Shown one piece after another: positions 8,573 to 38,365 of a stretch of 41,048 nt of DNA. Under the pieces are notes generated by a model. It was given only the letters and a program-made list of their open reading frames with translations. It was not told the origin of the DNA and ran no database searches. The translations under genes were made by a program, and so were the position numbers. The stretch is from Candidatus Nitrosopelagicus sp. (lineage in GTDB: Archaea > Thermoproteota > Nitrososphaeria > Nitrososphaerales > Nitrosopumilaceae): assembly GCA_022450565.1 (NCBI GenBank), contig JAKUOP010000009.1, positions 35,432-76,479 on the forward strand, given 5' to 3'. The stretch's first letter is position 1. Each line of letters starts with the position of its first letter.

Positions 8573-8950
8573 ATGGATAAAAATAAAAAATTCAAAACTA
8601 TCATACCTGAAATTTTTAAGATAAGTACTAAAATTAGATTTGTGGCAATAATTGATTTGAATGGAAAAATTGTTATTTCTGAAATGAAGCCTGATTTACA
8701 GTCTCTTTTAAAGAAATCAAACGAAGAAAAGTTCTGTGAACATGTTGCAGTTAGGCGTGATATGAGACATGAATTTGACGGCAAATTAGGCAAAGTCAGT
8801 TATGTTCATGTTGAGCGTGAGAATATAACGCAATTTGTGACCTATTCAAAATCACACTCATTTTTTATCACTTTAGAACCTGAGATTAAAAGTAATGTTA
8901 AAGCATCTATTATCATGAAAACCAAAAAAATTATTTTAACATTAAAATAA
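8573..8950 (+). CDS. Thaumarchaeal hypothetical protein, roadblock-like (125 aa)
   Basis: A 125-residue soluble protein. The sequence RFVAIIDLNGKIVISEMKP, then a helical part, then FVTYSKSHSFFITLEP and KASIIMKTKKIILTLK, reads as alternating strands and helices like a profilin/roadblock-type sensor domain. I associate it with a family restricted to Nitrososphaerota (possibly labelled DUF6659), but I cannot confirm this without a search. It has no catalytic motif and no membrane segment. The gene downstream is on the same strand 20 bases away. Confidence 0.75.
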   Translation: MDKNKKFKTIIPEIFKISTKIRFVAIIDLNGKIVISEMKPDLQSLLKKSNEEKFCEHVAVRRDMRHEFDGKLGKVSYVHVERENITQFVTYSKSHSFFITLEPEIKSNVKASIIMKTKKIILTLK

Positions 8951-9790: not shown

Positions 9791-9800
9791 GTTAGCACTA
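9791..9800 (+). promoter_or_regulatory. GTTAGCACTA operator-like site 1
   Basis: Exact copy of the recurring decamer, 48 to 39 bases before the TTG start of the CarH-like gene and about 6 bases upstream of its probable TATA box (TTTATTA, 9807-9813). Its core TAGCACTA is an imperfect palindrome (reverse complement TAGTGCTA), as expected for a dimeric regulator. Confidence 0.5.
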
Positions 9801-9838
9801 GAAATGTTTATTAGGCATTACGTATCTTATAAACCACA

Positions 9839-10696
9839 TTGGTTTACATTAGAAAAAAAAATGTTAAGAACGTTGATTATTTGTATTTAGTAAAAAGCAC
9901 ATGGGATAAAATTCACAAGACATCAAGACAGGAAACAATCAAGTATTTAGGCGCAATTAATAATGTAACACAAGAAGATATACCAGAAGAATACAGAAAC
10001 GATCCAAAAATCCAGGCGTTTCTATTACAAAACACGCCAAAAGACAGAGAAAAAAGAGAAAAAATAATTGAAAAATTACAGCTACAGATCTTTACATCTT
10101 TAACGGAAGGTGATCTAGATGGTGCAAAAAAAATCTACAGAGCATTTTTGGGAGATAATTCGTTAGATCAGTTTTATGAAAAAATTCTAAATCCTGTAAT
10201 GGATAGAATCGGTACAATGTGGTCAAATGGAATTCTTTCTGTTGCAACTGAACATGTATCAAGTAACATTGCACATAGTCTTGTAAAGATAATTGCAGAG
10301 GAGAAAAAAGGGAGATCGCTTTATGGGAAAGTAGTTCTAACAACACCAGTAGGGGAAGAGCATAACTTAGGATGTAGTGTCATGGAGTCATTTTTACTCA
10401 CTAAGGGCTTCACCACATTTAATCTGTCACCGTCTACACCCGCTGAGTCTGTTTTGAATTTCATGAAGAGTGTAACTCCTGACGCAATAATTATTTCAAT
10501 TACATTGTCTGATAGCATTCCTTCTGGTCAAAGGTTGACTAAAAAGATTCGAGAAATTTACAAGAGAATTCCAATATTTGTTGGTGGGCAAGCCTTCAAA
10601 AATGGCTCTAAATCTAAATTTGATGCAAGTGTGATTAAAGATAATGATGCATTGGGTCAATTACCTAAAATATTAAAAGCAAAAAAGAAAAATTAG
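9839..10696 (+). CDS. CarH-like B12-binding sensor protein with transposase-type N-terminal domain
   Basis: A 285-residue protein. Residues about 75-150 form the four-helix B12-binding cap and carry W128-x9-E138-H139, the Wx9EH motif of CarH/LitR photoreceptors that holds adenosylcobalamin. Residues about 160-280 form the Rossmann B12 domain with E173-x-H175-x2-G178, where H175 would be the lower cobalt ligand. The residue after the Trp, a His in Thermus CarH that forms the light-state adduct, is Ser129 here. The N-terminus is not MerR: YLYLVKSTWDKIHKTSRQ..IKYLG resembles the small domain preceding some transposases. No corrinoid methyltransferase is adjacent, favouring a sensory role. The start is TTG, with TATA about 27 bases upstream. 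Confidence 0.85.
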   Translation: MVYIRKKNVKNVDYLYLVKSTWDKIHKTSRQETIKYLGAINNVTQEDIPEEYRNDPKIQAFLLQNTPKDREKREKIIEKLQLQIFTSLTEGDLDGAKKIYRAFLGDNSLDQFYEKILNPVMDRIGTMWSNGILSVATEHVSSNIAHSLVKIIAEEKKGRSLYGKVVLTTPVGEEHNLGCSVMESFLLTKGFTTFNLSPSTPAESVLNFMKSVTPDAIIISITLSDSIPSGQRLTKKIREIYKRIPIFVGGQAFKNGSKSKFDASVIKDNDALGQLPKILKAKKKN

Positions 10697-10821: not shown

Positions 10822-10831
10822 GTTAGCACTA
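10822..10831 (+). promoter_or_regulatory. GTTAGCACTA operator-like site 2
   Basis: Exact decamer, again 48 to 39 bases before a start codon (ATG 10870). A degenerate second copy ATTAACACTA follows at 10841-10850, 19 bases downstream, which is near two helical turns. Confidence 0.5.
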
Positions 10832-10869
10832 TATGATAAAATTAACACTATAATTATATATGATGTACG

Positions 10870-11118
10870 ATGAATATGGTTATGGGAGCATCATGCAAAG
10901 GAATCTGCATTCAAATGAAGCACAGTCCAGTTCCAAACGCAAAAAAATATGAGTTTGGATTAAAGAGATGCAGTTGGTGTGAAGTTTTCTTAGCTACTGA
11001 TGAAATCAGATGTCCATGCTGCAAAATGATCTTAAGGACAAAATCTAGAAATAAGAAAAAATTACTCTCAGAAAGTACTCCAAGAACAGATAACGATACA
11101 AGTTTTAGTTTGGCATAA
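10870..11118 (+). CDS. Small zinc-ribbon protein (82 aa)
   Basis: An 82-residue protein with C9-x3-C13, C34-x2-C37 (RCSWCEVF) and C48-x-C50-C51 (RCPCCKMIL), followed by a basic stretch KSRNKKK and a polar tail. The last two Cys groups form a clear zinc ribbon of the type common among thaumarchaeal small proteins, possibly nucleic-acid binding. It starts 48 bases after a GTTAGCACTA site, and the desaturase-like gene starts 19 bases after its stop, so the two probably form an operon. It is a candidate small transcription regulator of the cluster, by position only. Confidence 0.82.
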   Translation: MNMVMGASCKGICIQMKHSPVPNAKKYEFGLKRCSWCEVFLATDEIRCPCCKMILRTKSRNKKKLLSESTPRTDNDTSFSLA

Positions 11119-11137: not shown

Positions 11138-12487
11138 ATGATTAAGCTTATGAAAAGTAAACCGGTAGTGATAATTGGTGCTGGTATTGGAGGTCTTACA
11201 ACAGGCACACTATTAGCAAAAAAAGGTGTATCTGTGGAAATATTCGAGAAGAGTAAACAAATTGGTGGCAGAACAGCTGCAGTAACATATAGAAATCATA
11301 TTTTAGATAATGGATTTCACATCATGCCGTTCTATAAAAAATCAGCAATATACGAAGTAATGAAAGAAGCCAACATCGAATCTAGATTAAAATTAGCAAT
11401 AGTAAGTGATATTGCATTTTACGATGGCTCAGGTTTTCACAAATACCCAAAAGGTATCACAGATATTCTCCAGATGTCATTAATTCCATTTAAAAGTAGA
11501 TTATCATTACTCAAAATTTTATTACCTATGGCATTTACCAGTATCGATAAAACAGAAGAACTTGATAAGATACCATTAACTGAAGTTACAAAAAAATTAG
11601 ACGATCATTCAAAACGTTTCTTTGATGCAGTTTGCATGCTAGCATTTGCTGACACTCCAGATCACATTTCACTTGGTGAATTTGCAAGAACAATAATTCG
11701 AGCAAATCCATTTAAAGGTGGAACAAGCGAATTTGCCTACCCTGATATGGGTGGTTATGATAGAATTTCACATGTAATGGCAGATTACATAAGGGAAGCC
11801 AAGTCTGACATTCATCTTGGAAAATCAATTAAGAAAATTTCGATTTCAGATGGCAAAGTCAATGGCGTAATACTGAATGATGAATCATTCATGGAAACTG
11901 ACTGTGTAATTGTGTCCTACCCTGCATATCACGCAATAAATCAATTATTTGATGATGGAATTTTTGATAATGAATTCATTCAGAAAATTAACAGGCTTGA
12001 TAAAACAACGTCTGTTGTGGAGGTTCATTTTGCATTATCGAAACAAATTGATTCTAGGCAAGTTGTTTTTCCAGTGGGAAAGGATTATGCATCAAAAGGA
12101 ATATTCTTTATTTCTAACATAACTCCATCAGTATCTCCATCTGGGGAGCACCTGTTAATTGTTGGTACACCAGTGAAACCAGAAGAAACTGATAACCCAT
12201 TACGTATTAAAGAAATTGTAACACAGATGAAACAAGAGCTCTCTGAAATATACCCCGAGTTTAATTCATCTTTACTTTGGGAACGTGCAATGGCATGGAA
12301 ACTCGTTGAGGCAATAGTCAAAGAACCTGGCTTAGTTTGGAAAAATAAAATGCCACATTCAGTTGAGAACATAGATGGATTATTTTTTGTCGGCGATTCA
12401 ACTATTAGCTATGGTATAGGAACTGATTCTGCCGCACATAGTTCAATTTTAGCCCATCCAAAGATTATGAAACACCTAGCAAAGTAA
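11138..12487 (+). CDS. Phytoene desaturase-like FAD-dependent oxidoreductase
   Basis: A 449-residue flavoprotein. The N-terminal dinucleotide fold PVVIIGAGIGGLTTGTLLAK with the trailing acidic residue IFEKSKQIGGRTA is the FAD-binding signature of the carotenoid desaturase/amine oxidase superfamily. The C-terminal VENIDGLFFVGDSTISYGIG is the second FAD contact. CrtI-type enzymes desaturate or isomerise isoprenoid chains, but no phytoene synthase is nearby, so the substrate is unknown; retinol saturase-like or polyprenyl-lipid activity are alternatives. A short GTGA before the ATG at 11138 could be a ribosome-binding site. An in-frame Met at 11150 is another possible start. It is likely co-transcribed with the zinc-ribbon gene. 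Confidence 0.85.
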   Translation: MIKLMKSKPVVIIGAGIGGLTTGTLLAKKGVSVEIFEKSKQIGGRTAAVTYRNHILDNGFHIMPFYKKSAIYEVMKEANIESRLKLAIVSDIAFYDGSGFHKYPKGITDILQMSLIPFKSRLSLLKILLPMAFTSIDKTEELDKIPLTEVTKKLDDHSKRFFDAVCMLAFADTPDHISLGEFARTIIRANPFKGGTSEFAYPDMGGYDRISHVMADYIREAKSDIHLGKSIKKISISDGKVNGVILNDESFMETDCVIVSYPAYHAINQLFDDGIFDNEFIQKINRLDKTTSVVEVHFALSKQIDSRQVVFPVGKDYASKGIFFISNITPSVSPSGEHLLIVGTPVKPEETDNPLRIKEIVTQMKQELSEIYPEFNSSLLWERAMAWKLVEAIVKEPGLVWKNKMPHSVENIDGLFFVGDSTISYGIGTDSAAHSSILAHPKIMKHLAK

Positions 12488-12925
12488 TTAATTTGAATTA
12501 CTTTTGGCGTAATCAACAAATTCATTCATTACATTATTCATTTGTGTTTTAATTTTTCCTTTTGCAAATATTCCAAGTAATTTTAAACTACCGTGCAGTA
12601 TGAAATCAACTTTTATTGTAATTTTAGTTTTAATGCCTATCTTCTCATACGTTTCATCAAAACTACTTCCTTTGGCAGGTCCATCAAGCATTGTTACTAT
12701 GTGTCGATCTGGTTTTATTACAACATGTTCGGTCAGAACAGTTGCAGTTCTACCCAAGAAATTTATCGTCTCGTAAATTTTTGTATTTTTCTCACTCTTT
12801 TCTACTATCTCTAGTTTTTCAAAGTAATTTGGAAGTATTTTTGTAAAATTTTCATAGTTTGTACTGATTTCAAAAATCAAGTCTCTATCGACATTTACAA
12901 TTTTTACAAATTCAAATTTTGGCAT
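12488..12925 (-). CDS. SRPBCC/COQ10-like START-domain protein (145 aa)
   Basis: I take the ATG at 12925 (MPKFEFVKIVNVDRDLIFEI): it starts the family domain, while the frame open to 13000 adds an unrelated 25 residues. FEISTNYENFTKILPNYFEK is typical of the polyketide cyclase/COQ10 group, whose cavity binds hydrophobic ligands such as quinones or polyprenyl lipids. A paralogue lies at 19796-20218. The stop directly abuts that of the desaturase-like gene on the other strand. The promoter region contains GTTGGCACTA at 12974-12983, 49-58 bases upstream. Confidence 0.82.
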   Translation of the reverse strand: MPKFEFVKIVNVDRDLIFEISTNYENFTKILPNYFEKLEIVEKSEKNTKIYETINFLGRTATVLTEHVVIKPDRHIVTMLDGPAKGSSFDETYEKIGIKTKITIKVDFILHGSLKLLGIFAKGKIKTQMNNVMNEFVDYAKSNSN

Positions 12926-12973
12926 ACAGATATTTTTTTTCGTGGCAATTAAAATTGTTAAGGTATCATAATA

Positions 12974-12983
12974 GTTGGCACTA
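12974..12983 (+). promoter_or_regulatory. GTTGGCACTA operator-like site 3
   Basis: One mismatch to the decamer. It lies in the divergent spacer between the SRPBCC gene (start 12925, minus) and the secreted-protein gene (start about 13036, plus), so it could act on both. Confidence 0.45.
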
Positions 12984-13002
12984 GTGGAAAAAATAGGCAC
13001 GT

Positions 13003-13012
13003 GCTTTATATA
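13003..13012 (+). promoter_or_regulatory. TATA box for the 13036 gene
   Basis: GCTTTATATAT-type element at about 13003-13012. It is the best TATA in the spacer and lies 24-33 bases before the TTG at 13036, which is the main reason to prefer that codon over the ATG at 13012 inside the box. Confidence 0.55.
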
Positions 13013-13035
13013 TGATTTTAAGGGCAGAATTTCTA

Positions 13036-14010
13036 TTGAAACAAATCTTTGGTTTAATGGCAGGGATATTTCTTATCACTGCATTTGTTGGATACGCTGA
13101 TGCGGCCAATGTTCCAGCTTGGGTTAAAAACAATGCTGGATGGTGGTCAAGTGGTCAGATAGACGATCAAGCATTTGTTTCTGGAATACAGTTTCTAATT
13201 GAAGAAGGTTTAATCACGGTTCCATCTACAACAAGGAGTGCATCAACTTCTGATAGTATACCAGACTGGGTGAAAAATACAGCTGGTTGGTGGTCAAACG
13301 ATGAAATATCAGAGAATGACTTTATCAATGCAATACAATATTTGATAAAAACTGGAATTATGAGTGTTAGTGCAAGTTCAGTGGGTGACGATATGAAACA
13401 GCCATCACAATATCAAGAACCAAAAACACAATCCTCAAGCACAGTTAACAAAACTGGCGATGATTCATTAGATCAAATGCTTGTAGTATGTCAAAGTGAG
13501 GAAAATCCAAGATTAGTCAGAGATTGTGAAAAGGCAATAAAGGAGGAATACAATCTTAAGCAATACAAAGCTAACAGCACATCATACCAAGTAGGACCAA
13601 TTACATATTATTATGCACCAGATTGGCAGGAAGAAACTAAAGGTGTTCTAAAGCAGTACAATAATATTTCTTATACTGCCACTGGACAAGCTCTACTTAA
13701 TCTCAAACTTTTAGCTGAAAATACAGGTTCATCTAGTAATGTAACAATGACATGTACCAGTCCATCTCTCTGTAACTATAACGTATGGGATGGTGGACAC
13801 AAATGGGTAAACTCTGGTTCAGACTTTACATCAGGAAATGTCGTTCTCAAAGAAGGGCAAAACAGATTCCTCAATATTCTATGGGGACCAGCTATAGGTT
13901 ATGGCAGTTATGAGGACTTTATCTATGATTCTGGGAAAGATTATTCATTAAAAATACAAGAACCATTTGGTAGTCTAGACTTACCATTGAATCTAGTTGT
14001 AGTTCCATAG
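13036..14010 (+). CDS. Secreted protein with two WVKN..GWW repeats
   Basis: From TTG 13036 the protein is 324 residues and begins with a normal signal peptide, MKQIFGLMAGIFLITAFVGY then ADA-A. The frame also has an ATG at 13012 and one at 13057. Two copies of the thaumarchaeal repeat P-x-WVKN-x-AGWWS-x(4)-I-x(4)-F-x(2)-xIQ-x-LI follow: the first at VPAWVKNNAGWWSSGQIDDQ and the second at IPDWVKNTAGWWSNDEISEN. A Ser/Thr/Gln-rich linker precedes a C-terminal domain of about 180 residues that I do not recognise, with a likely disulphide in TCTSPSLC. It is probably exported to the pseudo-periplasm. It is divergent from the SRPBCC gene across an operator-like site. Confidence 0.82.
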   Translation: MKQIFGLMAGIFLITAFVGYADAANVPAWVKNNAGWWSSGQIDDQAFVSGIQFLIEEGLITVPSTTRSASTSDSIPDWVKNTAGWWSNDEISENDFINAIQYLIKTGIMSVSASSVGDDMKQPSQYQEPKTQSSSTVNKTGDDSLDQMLVVCQSEENPRLVRDCEKAIKEEYNLKQYKANSTSYQVGPITYYYAPDWQEETKGVLKQYNNISYTATGQALLNLKLLAENTGSSSNVTMTCTSPSLCNYNVWDGGHKWVNSGSDFTSGNVVLKEGQNRFLNILWGPAIGYGSYEDFIYDSGKDYSLKIQEPFGSLDLPLNLVVVP

Positions 14011-14319: not shown

Positions 14320-15093
14320 TTGGTTAATCATTGGACACCAATCTATCTAAAGAAGAATCAAAAATTTGAATTTATTGACGAATTGGCTAGTGGGTCAATC
14401 CCAGCATTAATTCTTAAAAAAGCGTTTTCACTGAAAACTTGTAAGAAGATTATTGAAAAAATTTTAGATTTTAATTATGTTTCCAATGGTCCAGGGATTG
14501 AAAAGAAAATTGGTGTATCTTTAAATTCATTTATTAATCAAAAAGGCACATATTTTGAAAAAACTCGATTCATAGAAAAAAAACTTGAGCGATATTTTCC
14601 TTATAATGAAGATCCAAGAACCTTGATGCAAAATATATTGTCAACTGTGTTTTCAATGGAAACTAGAATTGCAAAAGAAAATAACTCAAATTATTCAAAG
14701 GGTGTTTTTAGATTTCATGGAACTAATGAATCATTCAAAATTCATAGAGATTCTGCACATTATGAAGCAGTTGGTTACCAAGTATCAAAGATTCCATTAC
14801 AATTTTCTGCGGTGTTACATTTACAGCCAGCTGAATATGGAGGTGAATTAGTTATATACAGAAAAATTTGGAAACACAGCGATGAAAAGTATAGAACTCC
14901 ATATTTTGGTTATTCAGAAAAAGTTGTTCATGATATAGAATCTATAAAAATTAAACCTGAAACAGGTGATATAGTAATCATAAATCCAATTCACTATCAT
15001 GCAATTTCTAAAATCAAAGGAAAGCACTATAGGATAAGTACAGGATTCTTTTTTGCCCCAACTGATGAACAAACACTGACATGTTGGGCCTAA
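14320..15093 (+). CDS. 2-oxoglutarate/Fe(II)-dependent oxygenase
   Basis: A 257-residue jelly-roll oxygenase of the prolyl-4-hydroxylase/PKHD type. The iron facial triad is H142-x-D144 (KIHRDSAHYEA) and H227 (NPIHYHAISK; H225 is nearby), and R238 would bind the 2-oxoglutarate carboxylate. LHLQPAEYGGELVIY and KPETGDIVIINP are family strands. These enzymes hydroxylate proteins or small molecules; the substrate here is unknown. The start is TTG at 14320, directly after the TAA of the preceding gene. The 3' end nearly touches the convergent 15095 gene. Confidence 0.85.
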   Translation: MVNHWTPIYLKKNQKFEFIDELASGSIPALILKKAFSLKTCKKIIEKILDFNYVSNGPGIEKKIGVSLNSFINQKGTYFEKTRFIEKKLERYFPYNEDPRTLMQNILSTVFSMETRIAKENNSNYSKGVFRFHGTNESFKIHRDSAHYEAVGYQVSKIPLQFSAVLHLQPAEYGGELVIYRKIWKHSDEKYRTPYFGYSEKVVHDIESIKIKPETGDIVIINPIHYHAISKIKGKHYRISTGFFFAPTDEQTLTCWA

Positions 15094-15479: not shown

Positions 15480-15489
15480 GTTAGCACTA
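15480..15489 (+). promoter_or_regulatory. GTTAGCACTA operator-like site 4
   Basis: Exact decamer in the divergent spacer, 50-59 bases upstream of the minus-strand gene (15430) and 52-43 bases upstream of the plus-strand gene (15532, TATA GTTATATTAT at 15501-15510). It is flanked by an inverted AAAGT..ACTTT. Confidence 0.5.
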
Positions 15490-15531: not shown

Positions 15532-16251
15532 ATGAATAAAAAAATTCCAGTATTGATTATGGTAATTGGTGTATTATTATTAATCCCATCAACAGCATTT
15601 GGTCATAAACTTATTCCTACAAATGGTTCAAATGATTCATTAGAAAATGGATTAATGATCAGTGATCATATGATATCATGGGCTGTATATGAAGAGCTTA
15701 ATGGCAATGAATTGTATTATACGTTTGATGGAAAGAAAGGGGATATGTTTTTTGCAAGTATTGTAATTCCAAAAATTGAAACACTCAAAAATTTTTCTCC
15801 GTCACTTGCATTCATTGGTTACGAATCACATTTGGAATTAATTCAGGGTTATGAAATTGATAATTCAAACAGAAATTTCCCATATGCTTTACCTGAAGGA
15901 TTTAATGCATATGTTTTTGATTATTCTGGGTCTTTTCCATCAAAGGAATTCTATGAACCATTTGGGCAGATAACATATTGGGAAAGACAAGAAATCACAT
16001 TTGATTTACCTGCTGATGGAACTTATTATTTATCAGTTTTTGACAGAAACTCAAATCCAGGAAAATATGCATTAGCTATAGGAACAATTGAAGATTTTTC
16101 TGCATATGATTTTTTTACACTTTTACCTTATGCGTGGTTAGCAACAAAACTATTTGTTAATGATTACTTTTCTGCTATAATTGCAATTGGAATTTTTATT
16201 GGGATTTTGGGATTGATTATATTCGGCATATATCGTAAATTACGAAAATGA
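15532..16251 (+). CDS. Exported membrane-anchored protein (239 aa)
   Basis: The N-terminal signal peptide is KKIPVLIMVIGVLLLIPSTA followed by FG-H. The ectodomain is about 165 residues with two strands like pre-peptidase-C/emp24-type modules (ELYYTFDGKKGDMFFASIVI; LPADGTYYLSVFDRN..PGKYALAIG). A C-terminal membrane helix (YFSAIIAIGIFIGILGLIIF) ends in a basic IYRKLRK tail, giving an outside-facing anchored topology. The thaumarchaeal role is unknown; the fold suggests carbohydrate or ligand binding at the surface. TATA and a GTTAGCACTA site precede the ATG. Confidence 0.8.
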   Translation: MNKKIPVLIMVIGVLLLIPSTAFGHKLIPTNGSNDSLENGLMISDHMISWAVYEELNGNELYYTFDGKKGDMFFASIVIPKIETLKNFSPSLAFIGYESHLELIQGYEIDNSNRNFPYALPEGFNAYVFDYSGSFPSKEFYEPFGQITYWERQEITFDLPADGTYYLSVFDRNSNPGKYALAIGTIEDFSAYDFFTLLPYAWLATKLFVNDYFSAIIAIGIFIGILGLIIFGIYRKLRK

Positions 16252-37385: not shown

Positions 37386-37395
37386 TTTAGCACTA
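37386..37395 (+). promoter_or_regulatory. TTTAGCACTA operator-like site 5
   Basis: One mismatch to the decamer. It lies 50-41 bases before the ATG at 37436 of the TFB gene, the same spacing as the sites at 9791 and 10822. This supports both the site and the later start. Confidence 0.4.
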
Positions 37396-37435
37396 GATGA
37401 CATTCCTAATTAATTCAAAACAACATATGTTATGT

Positions 37436-38365
37436 ATGGAAGATGTTTCTAGTGAATTTGCCCATGAATGTACAAGTAAAAAATCAACAAAAATCTCTTT
37501 GATTACAGACACTAATACTGGTGAAATAATGTGCGCTAATTGCGGATACGTTATTACGGAAAAATTAGAAGAAACTGGCCCCGAATACTCATTACATTCG
37601 GGCGAAGACTATCTTGGCAAATCAAGGGTTGGCAGAAAATCTACACTCGCATTTAATGACATGGGGCTTTCAACGATGATTCAACAATCAGATAGAGACT
37701 CTACTGGAAAGGGGCTGTCAGGAGAAATGAAAAGAACTTTTTATCGACTAAGAATGTGGGATAAGAACAGTAAAGCACGTCCCGGTCAAAGAAACATGCA
37801 AAAGGCATTTACCATTCTAGAGGGTTTGAAATCAAAATTGTCGTTATCAGAAGCTTCTGTAGAAAAATCCGCATACATCTACAGAAAAGCACTTGGAAAA
37901 AAAATTGGTCGCGGTAGAAGTATTCCAGTGATAATCAGTGCATCAATTTATGCAGGATGTAGATTTACTAATACACCAAGAACAATTCAAGACATTTCAA
38001 ATGCTACAAACATCAAAAGAACAACAATTCATAGAATGTACCGAATTCTTGTTAAAGAGTTAGATCTTACAATTGAAACGTATAATCCAATTGAGTTTAT
38101 TTCAAGAATTTCTAGTACCTTAAATGTGACAGAAAAAACACAGAGAGATGCAACCAAGATTCTCATAAAAGCAGAATCTCATATGATGACTAGTGGAAAG
38201 AATCCAGTGGCTGTTGCTGCAACAGTTGTATATCTAGCAGCAATAGCAAATAATCAAAAAATTACTCAGACACAAGTTGCAAATGCATCTGAAATCAGCA
38301 GTGTGACAATCAGGAATTTATGTAGATTATTTAAAAAATCAAAGGAAATGGTAATAGAAAACTAA
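37436..38365 (+). CDS. tfb: Transcription initiation factor B (TFB/TFIIB)
   Basis: 309 residues from ATG 37436; in-frame ATGs at 37397 and 37427 are alternatives. The N-terminal zinc ribbon is odd: only FAHEC where a C-x2-C is usual, then MCANCGYVI. The B-reader/linker region is SRVGRKSTLAFNDMGL. Two cyclin-like repeats follow, with IPVIISASIYAGCRFTNTPR in the first and NPVAVAATVVYLAA in the second, each ending in a recognition helix (TNIKRTTIHRMYRI; SEISSVTIRNLCR). TFB bridges TBP-DNA and RNA polymerase. Thaumarchaea have several TFBs; this may be a specialised one. Confidence 0.93.
   Translation: MEDVSSEFAHECTSKKSTKISLITDTNTGEIMCANCGYVITEKLEETGPEYSLHSGEDYLGKSRVGRKSTLAFNDMGLSTMIQQSDRDSTGKGLSGEMKRTFYRLRMWDKNSKARPGQRNMQKAFTILEGLKSKLSLSEASVEKSAYIYRKALGKKIGRGRSIPVIISASIYAGCRFTNTPRTIQDISNATNIKRTTIHRMYRILVKELDLTIETYNPIEFISRISSTLNVTEKTQRDATKILIKAESHMMTSGKNPVAVAATVVYLAAIANNQKITQTQVANASEISSVTIRNLCRLFKKSKEMVIEN

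Follow-up and report, generated by a model that had tools for sequence, protein, structure and literature searches.

A CarH-like switch probably turns on sunlight protection in ocean ammonia-oxidising archaea. The candidate regulator is a 285-residue protein encoded in a 41,048-nucleotide stretch of Candidatus Nitrosopelagicus sp. DNA, referred to here as the window. We consider it likely that ammonia-oxidising archaea have in this protein a CarH-like, AdoCbl-dependent transcription regulator that carries a transposase-type head where CarH has MerR and represses a photoprotection regulon in the dark. In bacteria, CarH uses a MerR head to repress carotenoid genes in the dark. Ammonia-oxidising archaea are abundant nitrifiers inhibited by light; by what means they sense it is, to our knowledge, not known, and we know of no earlier AdoCbl-dependent, light-responsive regulator of photoprotection in Archaea. 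The features on which this reading draws are listed in Table 1.

Table 1. Features of the window that bear on the CarH-like regulator and its putative regulon
Feature	Position	Strand	Basis
CarH-type cobalamin-binding regulator, 285 aa, TTG start	9839..10696	+	Pfam, NCBIfam, PDB sequence matches, ortholog conservation
Transposase/Fic-type head, ~65 aa; proposed DNA-binding	9839..10033	+	Profile matches, DDE ORFs, Fic, AF2 pLDDT 84
B12-binding_2 helical cap, residues 83–151, bearing W128-x9-E138-H139	10085..10291	+	Pfam, conservation
B12-binding Rossmann domain, residues 163–254 (E173-x-H175-x2-G178, S220xT222, G249G250)	10325..10600	+	Pfam, conservation
Small Cys-rich (Zn-ribbon-like) protein, conserved in cluster	10870..11118	+	ORF, cluster conservation
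FAD-dependent oxidoreductase (amine-oxidase/phytoene-desaturase-like)	11138..12487	+	Pfam, NCBIfam; orthologs in 42 gene-positive genomes and 1 gene-negative genome
SRPBCC-like protein, conserved in cluster	12488..13000	-	Below Pfam cut-off
Secreted-type protein family, preceded by the element in most relatives	13012..14010	+	Cluster conservation
2OG-Fe(II) oxygenase (WelO5-like oxygenase/halogenase family, E 1e-23)	14320..15093	+	Pfam; in cluster in 8 loci
Membrane protein conserved in cluster, element upstream	15532..16251	+	Cluster conservation
TFB (TFIIB) paralog, counterpart of relatives' cluster TFB	37397..38365	+	Sequence comparison
Operator-like element of CarH-like gene, GTTAGCACTA + second copy TAGGCATTA (9812–9820)	9791..9820	+	20-bp period in genus
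Element GTTAGCACTA + ATTAACACTA, 19-bp direct repeat, upstream of Zn-ribbon/FAD-oxidoreductase operon	10822..10850	+	
Variant element GTTGGCACTA + ATAGGCACGT, upstream of 13012	12974..13002	+	
GTTAGCACTA upstream of 15532	15480..15489	+	
TTTAGCACTA, with internal Met codons of the TFB ORF 40–50 nt further on	37386..37395	+	

A CarH-type cobalamin-binding domain

A preliminary description of this DNA had called the open reading frame CarH-like, giving its position and length and the residues W128-x9-E138-H139 and E173-x-H175-x2-G178. Coordinates, length and residue numbering all hold, the residues are conserved in orthologs, and CarH provides both the best NCBIfam model and the best PDB sequence matches. 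Pfam recognises B12-binding_2 and B12-binding, each with an E-value of 1.1e-10 and above its cut-off. The CarH model of NCBIfam scores 73.5 bits and matches residues 77–274 only, with pyl_corrinoid at 37.9; since 73.5 bits is far under the 400-bit equivalog cut-off of the CarH model, the archaeal protein is no CarH equivalog. Among PDB sequences the chains of Thermus thermophilus CarH (TtCarH) come first, followed by photocobilins and CtMerR.

The pair of Wx9EH and ExHx2G is the defining signature of CarH (PMC8156234). By phmmer alignment W128, E138/H139 and H175 correspond to W131, E141/H142 and H177 of TtCarH, and S129 to H132. The archaeal protein also has the B12-binding motif E/DxHx2G/P...SxT/V...GG. 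W128, E138, H139, E173, H175, P201, S220, T222, G249 and G250 are invariant in all 33 orthologs compared, so the motif match is no chance event; G178 is kept in 32 of the 33, and Wx9EH is present in 16/16 orthologs sampled across three families. Two positions differ: G197 of the GxxxP motif varies among the 33 orthologs, the window protein reading SxxxP, and the residue following the Trp, at the position of TtCarH His132, is Ser129 in the window and Ser, Ala, Glu or Lys, never His, in the 33 orthologs.

A transposase-type N-terminal head

Pfam and NCBIfam find no MerR-type winged-helix domain at the N-terminus, in agreement with the preliminary description, which had likened this part to the small domain before some transposases and proposed a profile search. 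That search gives transposase kin for the head and CarH for the cobalamin part. A profile of the head matches two transposase heads (E 7e-8 and 3e-5), both of them ORFs that come from a different family of the phylum and precede a DDE_Tnp_1 ORF, and the head of a Fic protein (E 4e-4). The window head and the IS4-type and Fic heads have the pattern Y-x-YL-x-x-S-x-WD ... K/Q-YLG in common, and across residues 1–65, which are basic, 21 of the 65 columns are invariant in a diverse set of orthologs. Judged on these matches, the head is homologous to the N-terminal domain of IS4-type transposases. From its place, its charge and its transposase kin we infer that it binds DNA, one of the two roles (output or DNA binding) suggested in the preliminary description. 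Searches for it found no family in Pfam, NCBIfam or PHROGs, no PDB match by sequence or fold (hence no solved structural relative), and no homolog on plasmids or in viruses. Because the full-length AF2 model has pLDDT < 50 for residues 1–43, we used, with caution, a separate 71-residue model, which predicts a three-stranded antiparallel sheet and a helix (best pLDDT 84, three of the five models below 50).

Distribution and neighbouring genes

On present sequence sampling the family is widespread among ammonia-oxidising archaea of the Nitrososphaerales, with orthologs in 68 of 151 sampled Nitrosopumilaceae genomes, nearly half, and in two other families of that order; the rest of the phylum sample yielded no full-length match. 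Across genera the gene has conserved neighbours (DNA photolyase, DUF1722, an NmrA-type SDR and an FAD oxidoreductase), together with an SRPBCC protein, the Cys-rich small protein, a TFB paralog and several families without known function, family sizes and gene starts in these neighbourhoods being those of a simple ORF caller. With p-values stratified by genus at most and uncorrected for the species tree, the CarH-like gene is found in 30 of 32 genomes with photolyase versus 38 of 119 without (p 1e-10) and in 41 of the 44 with RudS-type DUF1722 (p 2e-15); it also accompanies the FAD oxidoreductase ortholog in 42 of 43 genomes and the cluster TFB clade in 24 of 26. Photolyase lies at most 10 kb from the CarH-like gene in 21 of the 30 genomes, in five genera. 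In the window's own genome neither photolyase nor DUF1722 was found, and the regulon there would therefore shrink to the FAD oxidoreductase, Zn-ribbon and 2OG-oxygenase set. Families resembling the DUF6659-like ORF at window positions 8573–8950, and a 184-residue family, recur in the cluster, often as tandem pairs beside photolyase.

The neighbours of carH in T. thermophilus are phr, a 480-residue SDR (33–37% identical to the archaeal SDR) and uvsE. LitR regions of Pseudomonas contain phrB, an SDR and an FAD oxidoreductase (PMC9758184), and RudS operons contain DUF1722 with LitR and phrB (PMC11417400). We regard this overlap in gene content with bacterial CarH/LitR regulons as the strongest argument in favour of a role in light. 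Two further observations concern the same families. In four genomes (G192, G323, G348, G339) second DUF1722 matches fall in ORFs of ~325 residues, a length that would suit a TudS-DUF1722 (RudS) fusion such as bacterial light operons have, and one archaeal cluster (L132, G339:C53) encodes a UvsE-like UV endonuclease 37% identical to the uvsE product of the T. thermophilus carH region.

The same genes could instead be governed by a metabolic sensor of AdoCbl level (or of redox state) that does not respond to light, a reading we think unlikely although several observations are in keeping with it: the cobalamin-binding domain (CBD) is conserved but lacks the His132 equivalent, the gene is present in the 38 genomes without photolyase noted above, and orthologs occur in other families of the order (L062–L064). 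Against this, Wx9EH, which caps the adenosyl group, accompanies photosensing in known proteins, and photolyase, RudS-type and UvsE genes as cluster partners fit light rather than B12 supply.

A repeated element at the promoters of the cluster

The promoter word GTTAGCACTA of the preliminary description is indeed present: the 1.1-Mb assembly has four exact copies, three of them in the window, where each precedes a start codon by 48–52 nt. The count of this exact 10-mer genome-wide, four versus two for a control, is not high, and it is the position and clustering of the copies, rather than their number, that are informative. The fourth copy, before an SMC-like ORF (L079), is without a second repeat and looks like chance. 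The word is one half of a conserved element, TTAGCACTAG-N9-TTAnCACTA (TTAGCACTAG-N9-TTAGCATTA), whose repeat unit is TTAGCACTA. Half-sites number 188 in 582 kb, versus 11 for the reversed control word. The distance from element to start codon peaks at 57–59 nt (61 sites), and in the logo a TATA-like box follows at +29 to +34, so that the downstream repeat abuts it in the position of a BRE.

The element lies upstream of nearly all CarH-like orthologs, those in other families of the order included; just upstream of two (L194, L195) it is absent. Sites distant from the main cluster precede the same families, namely the SDR (L121, L122) and the 184-residue family (L114). Among the 151 genomes the two-repeat pattern occurs in 65 of 68 with the gene versus 28 of 83 without (p 3e-16), and the association holds within genera (CMH p 2e-10), although part of it is automatic, since a genome that loses the gene loses the regulator's own site too. 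At least two sites are found in 11/12 gene-positive versus 0/5 gene-negative genomes of g2, 8/9 versus 0/9 of g4 and 14/16 versus 0/5 of g7. Six matches of the repeat pattern on viral contigs are about what chance could give. At four loci (L180, L184, L188, L189) from other genomes of the Nitrosopelagicus group, the repeats of the operon site, which precedes the FAD oxidoreductase by about 333–348 nt, are inverted, TTAGCACTAG...GCTAGTGC, rather than direct. Before the TFB ORF of the window, TTTAGCACTA ends 1 nt ahead of the called ATG, and the usual distance fits internal Met codons; the start has probably been called too far upstream, an internal Met being the likelier one.

Four archaeal paralogs of the CarH-like protein, one of them adjoining photolyase, have lost the W, E and H of Wx9EH. 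In all three of their flanks that were read (L191, L192, L193) TTAGCACTA is absent upstream; these flanks share a short palindrome-like sequence (ACTCACCTAGGTGAG, ACTCACCAAGGAGAG, ACTCCCTTTGGGGAG), perhaps the paralogs' own operator.

That the TFB paralog of the cluster reads TTAGCACTA as a BRE-like site, with the CarH-like protein acting by another route, would account for the BRE place of the downstream repeat and for this TFB being a member of the cluster that is largely confined to gene-positive genomes. We disfavour this reading of the element and judge it quite improbable: gene-positive genomes without that TFB clade (for example G003, G045 and G120) keep the element before the CarH-like gene, the element stands at this gene in other families too, and two repeats suggest an oligomeric regulator.

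Separation from methyltransferase corrinoid proteins

Clustering with methyltransferase corrinoid proteins, named in the preliminary description as an outcome that would speak against CarH, is not what the CBD tree gives: archaeal and corrinoid proteins form separate groups (support 98/97 and 100/99), with the bacterial photoreceptor CBDs placed between them on long branches. A methyltransferase-type corrinoid protein, or the partner of another B12 enzyme, carrying its head by chance would have both Pfam domains in common with the archaeal protein, which the MtgC, MtbC and MtaC models also match, more weakly, but we consider it very improbable, as Wx9EH occurs in 0 of 14 sampled corrinoid-type B12 proteins (from other Thermoproteota and ammonia-oxidising archaea), which make up the 100/99 group, and the neighbourhoods examined hold no recognised methyltransferase gene. 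A methyltransferase role was accordingly rejected: the protein has Wx9EH, and it does not group with the DxHDxG corrinoid proteins.

Proposed mechanism

For the CarH-like protein as a light-dependent repressor we propose the following scheme, in which a small transposase-type beta-sheet head would replace the bacterial MerR head. In the dark an AdoCbl-bound oligomer would occupy the repeated TTAGCACTA element, so that TBP/TFB would be blocked. On illumination the Co–C bond would break and the protein come off, switching on a photoprotection regulon made up of the CarH-like gene itself, photolyase, the DUF1722/RudS-type gene, the NmrA SDR, the FAD oxidoreductase, the small Zn-ribbon protein and the TFB paralog. 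Holding in the dark and release in the light are modelled on bacterial CarH; the downstream repeat lies directly against the TATA box, a place that fits repression, though the protein may instead activate. We infer a protein that binds AdoCbl, responds to light, recognises the element and represses rather than activates; the best reading is a regulator that is probably light-responsive and autoregulated.

Since the upper-ligand His of TtCarH is absent, the photocycle must differ from that of TtCarH, and the residue at the His132 position cannot give a bis-His light state of the TtCarH kind. The H132A variant of TtCarH mostly stays tetrameric after light and disassembles poorly (PMC10442372). 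CtMerR and photocobilins without a His132 equivalent are nevertheless light-responsive, and other light states exist (PMC11796333). The missing His counts against the proposed scheme, and so do the SxxxP of the window protein, the absence of photolyase and DUF1722 from the window's genome, a head with no solved structural relative and the two orthologs that have no element just upstream.

With less assurance, we lean towards the fuller reading of a first archaeal B12-dependent light switch, in which a CarH CBD and a transposase-type DNA-binding head would control the photolyase/RudS/SDR/FAD/TFB regulon through a new kind of direct-repeat operator at the TATA/BRE of the archaeal promoters, the second-tier TFB acting like an alternative sigma factor.

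Comparison with known systems

Literature searches, which covered papers outside subscription journals, returned no paper on an archaeal CarH. What we describe is a named candidate photoreceptor of ammonia-oxidising archaea with a probable operator and regulon, testable in cultured Nitrosopumilus. The protein shows the CarH chromophore domain coupled, in a domain of life other than Bacteria, to a head of another type, and may be of use in archaeal gene regulation and green-light optogenetics.

The archaeal protein has Wx9EH and ExHx2G...SxT...GG in common with bacterial CarH and class I–II LitR (Thermus, Myxococcus, Bacillus, Pseudomonas). The repeat element beside the TATA box, with a site at the regulator's own gene, may correspond to their repeat-type operator overlapping the promoter, and photolyase, SDR, FAD oxidoreductase, RudS and UvsE neighbours are common to both. 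Unlike them, it has no MerR head, no upper-ligand His, an archaeal promoter, no clear carotenoid operon and a TFB paralog in the putative regulon. The paralogs without Wx9EH have a parallel in CarA of Myxococcus, a B12-independent paralog of CarH (PMC9304148). CarA differs from them in its head and in retaining EH, its losses being the Trp and the residues that flank it, whereas in the archaeal paralogs W, E and H are all gone. The head of the archaeal protein is like those of IS4-type (DDE_Tnp_1) transposases and Fic proteins; here, in contrast, it is fused to a cobalamin domain and goes without a transposase or Fic catalytic domain. With the photocobilins and the other photoreceptors found by SignatureFinder (SasPcob, AbDPcob, CtMerR) the archaeal protein has in common GxxW, EH, GxxH and the invariant Pro of GxxxP, the window protein differing in its Ser for the Gly of GxxxP; several of these photoreceptors sense light without a His132 equivalent, and their head types (HTH, DGC, BBD, GAF, MEDS and others) do not include the archaeal head (PMC11796333).
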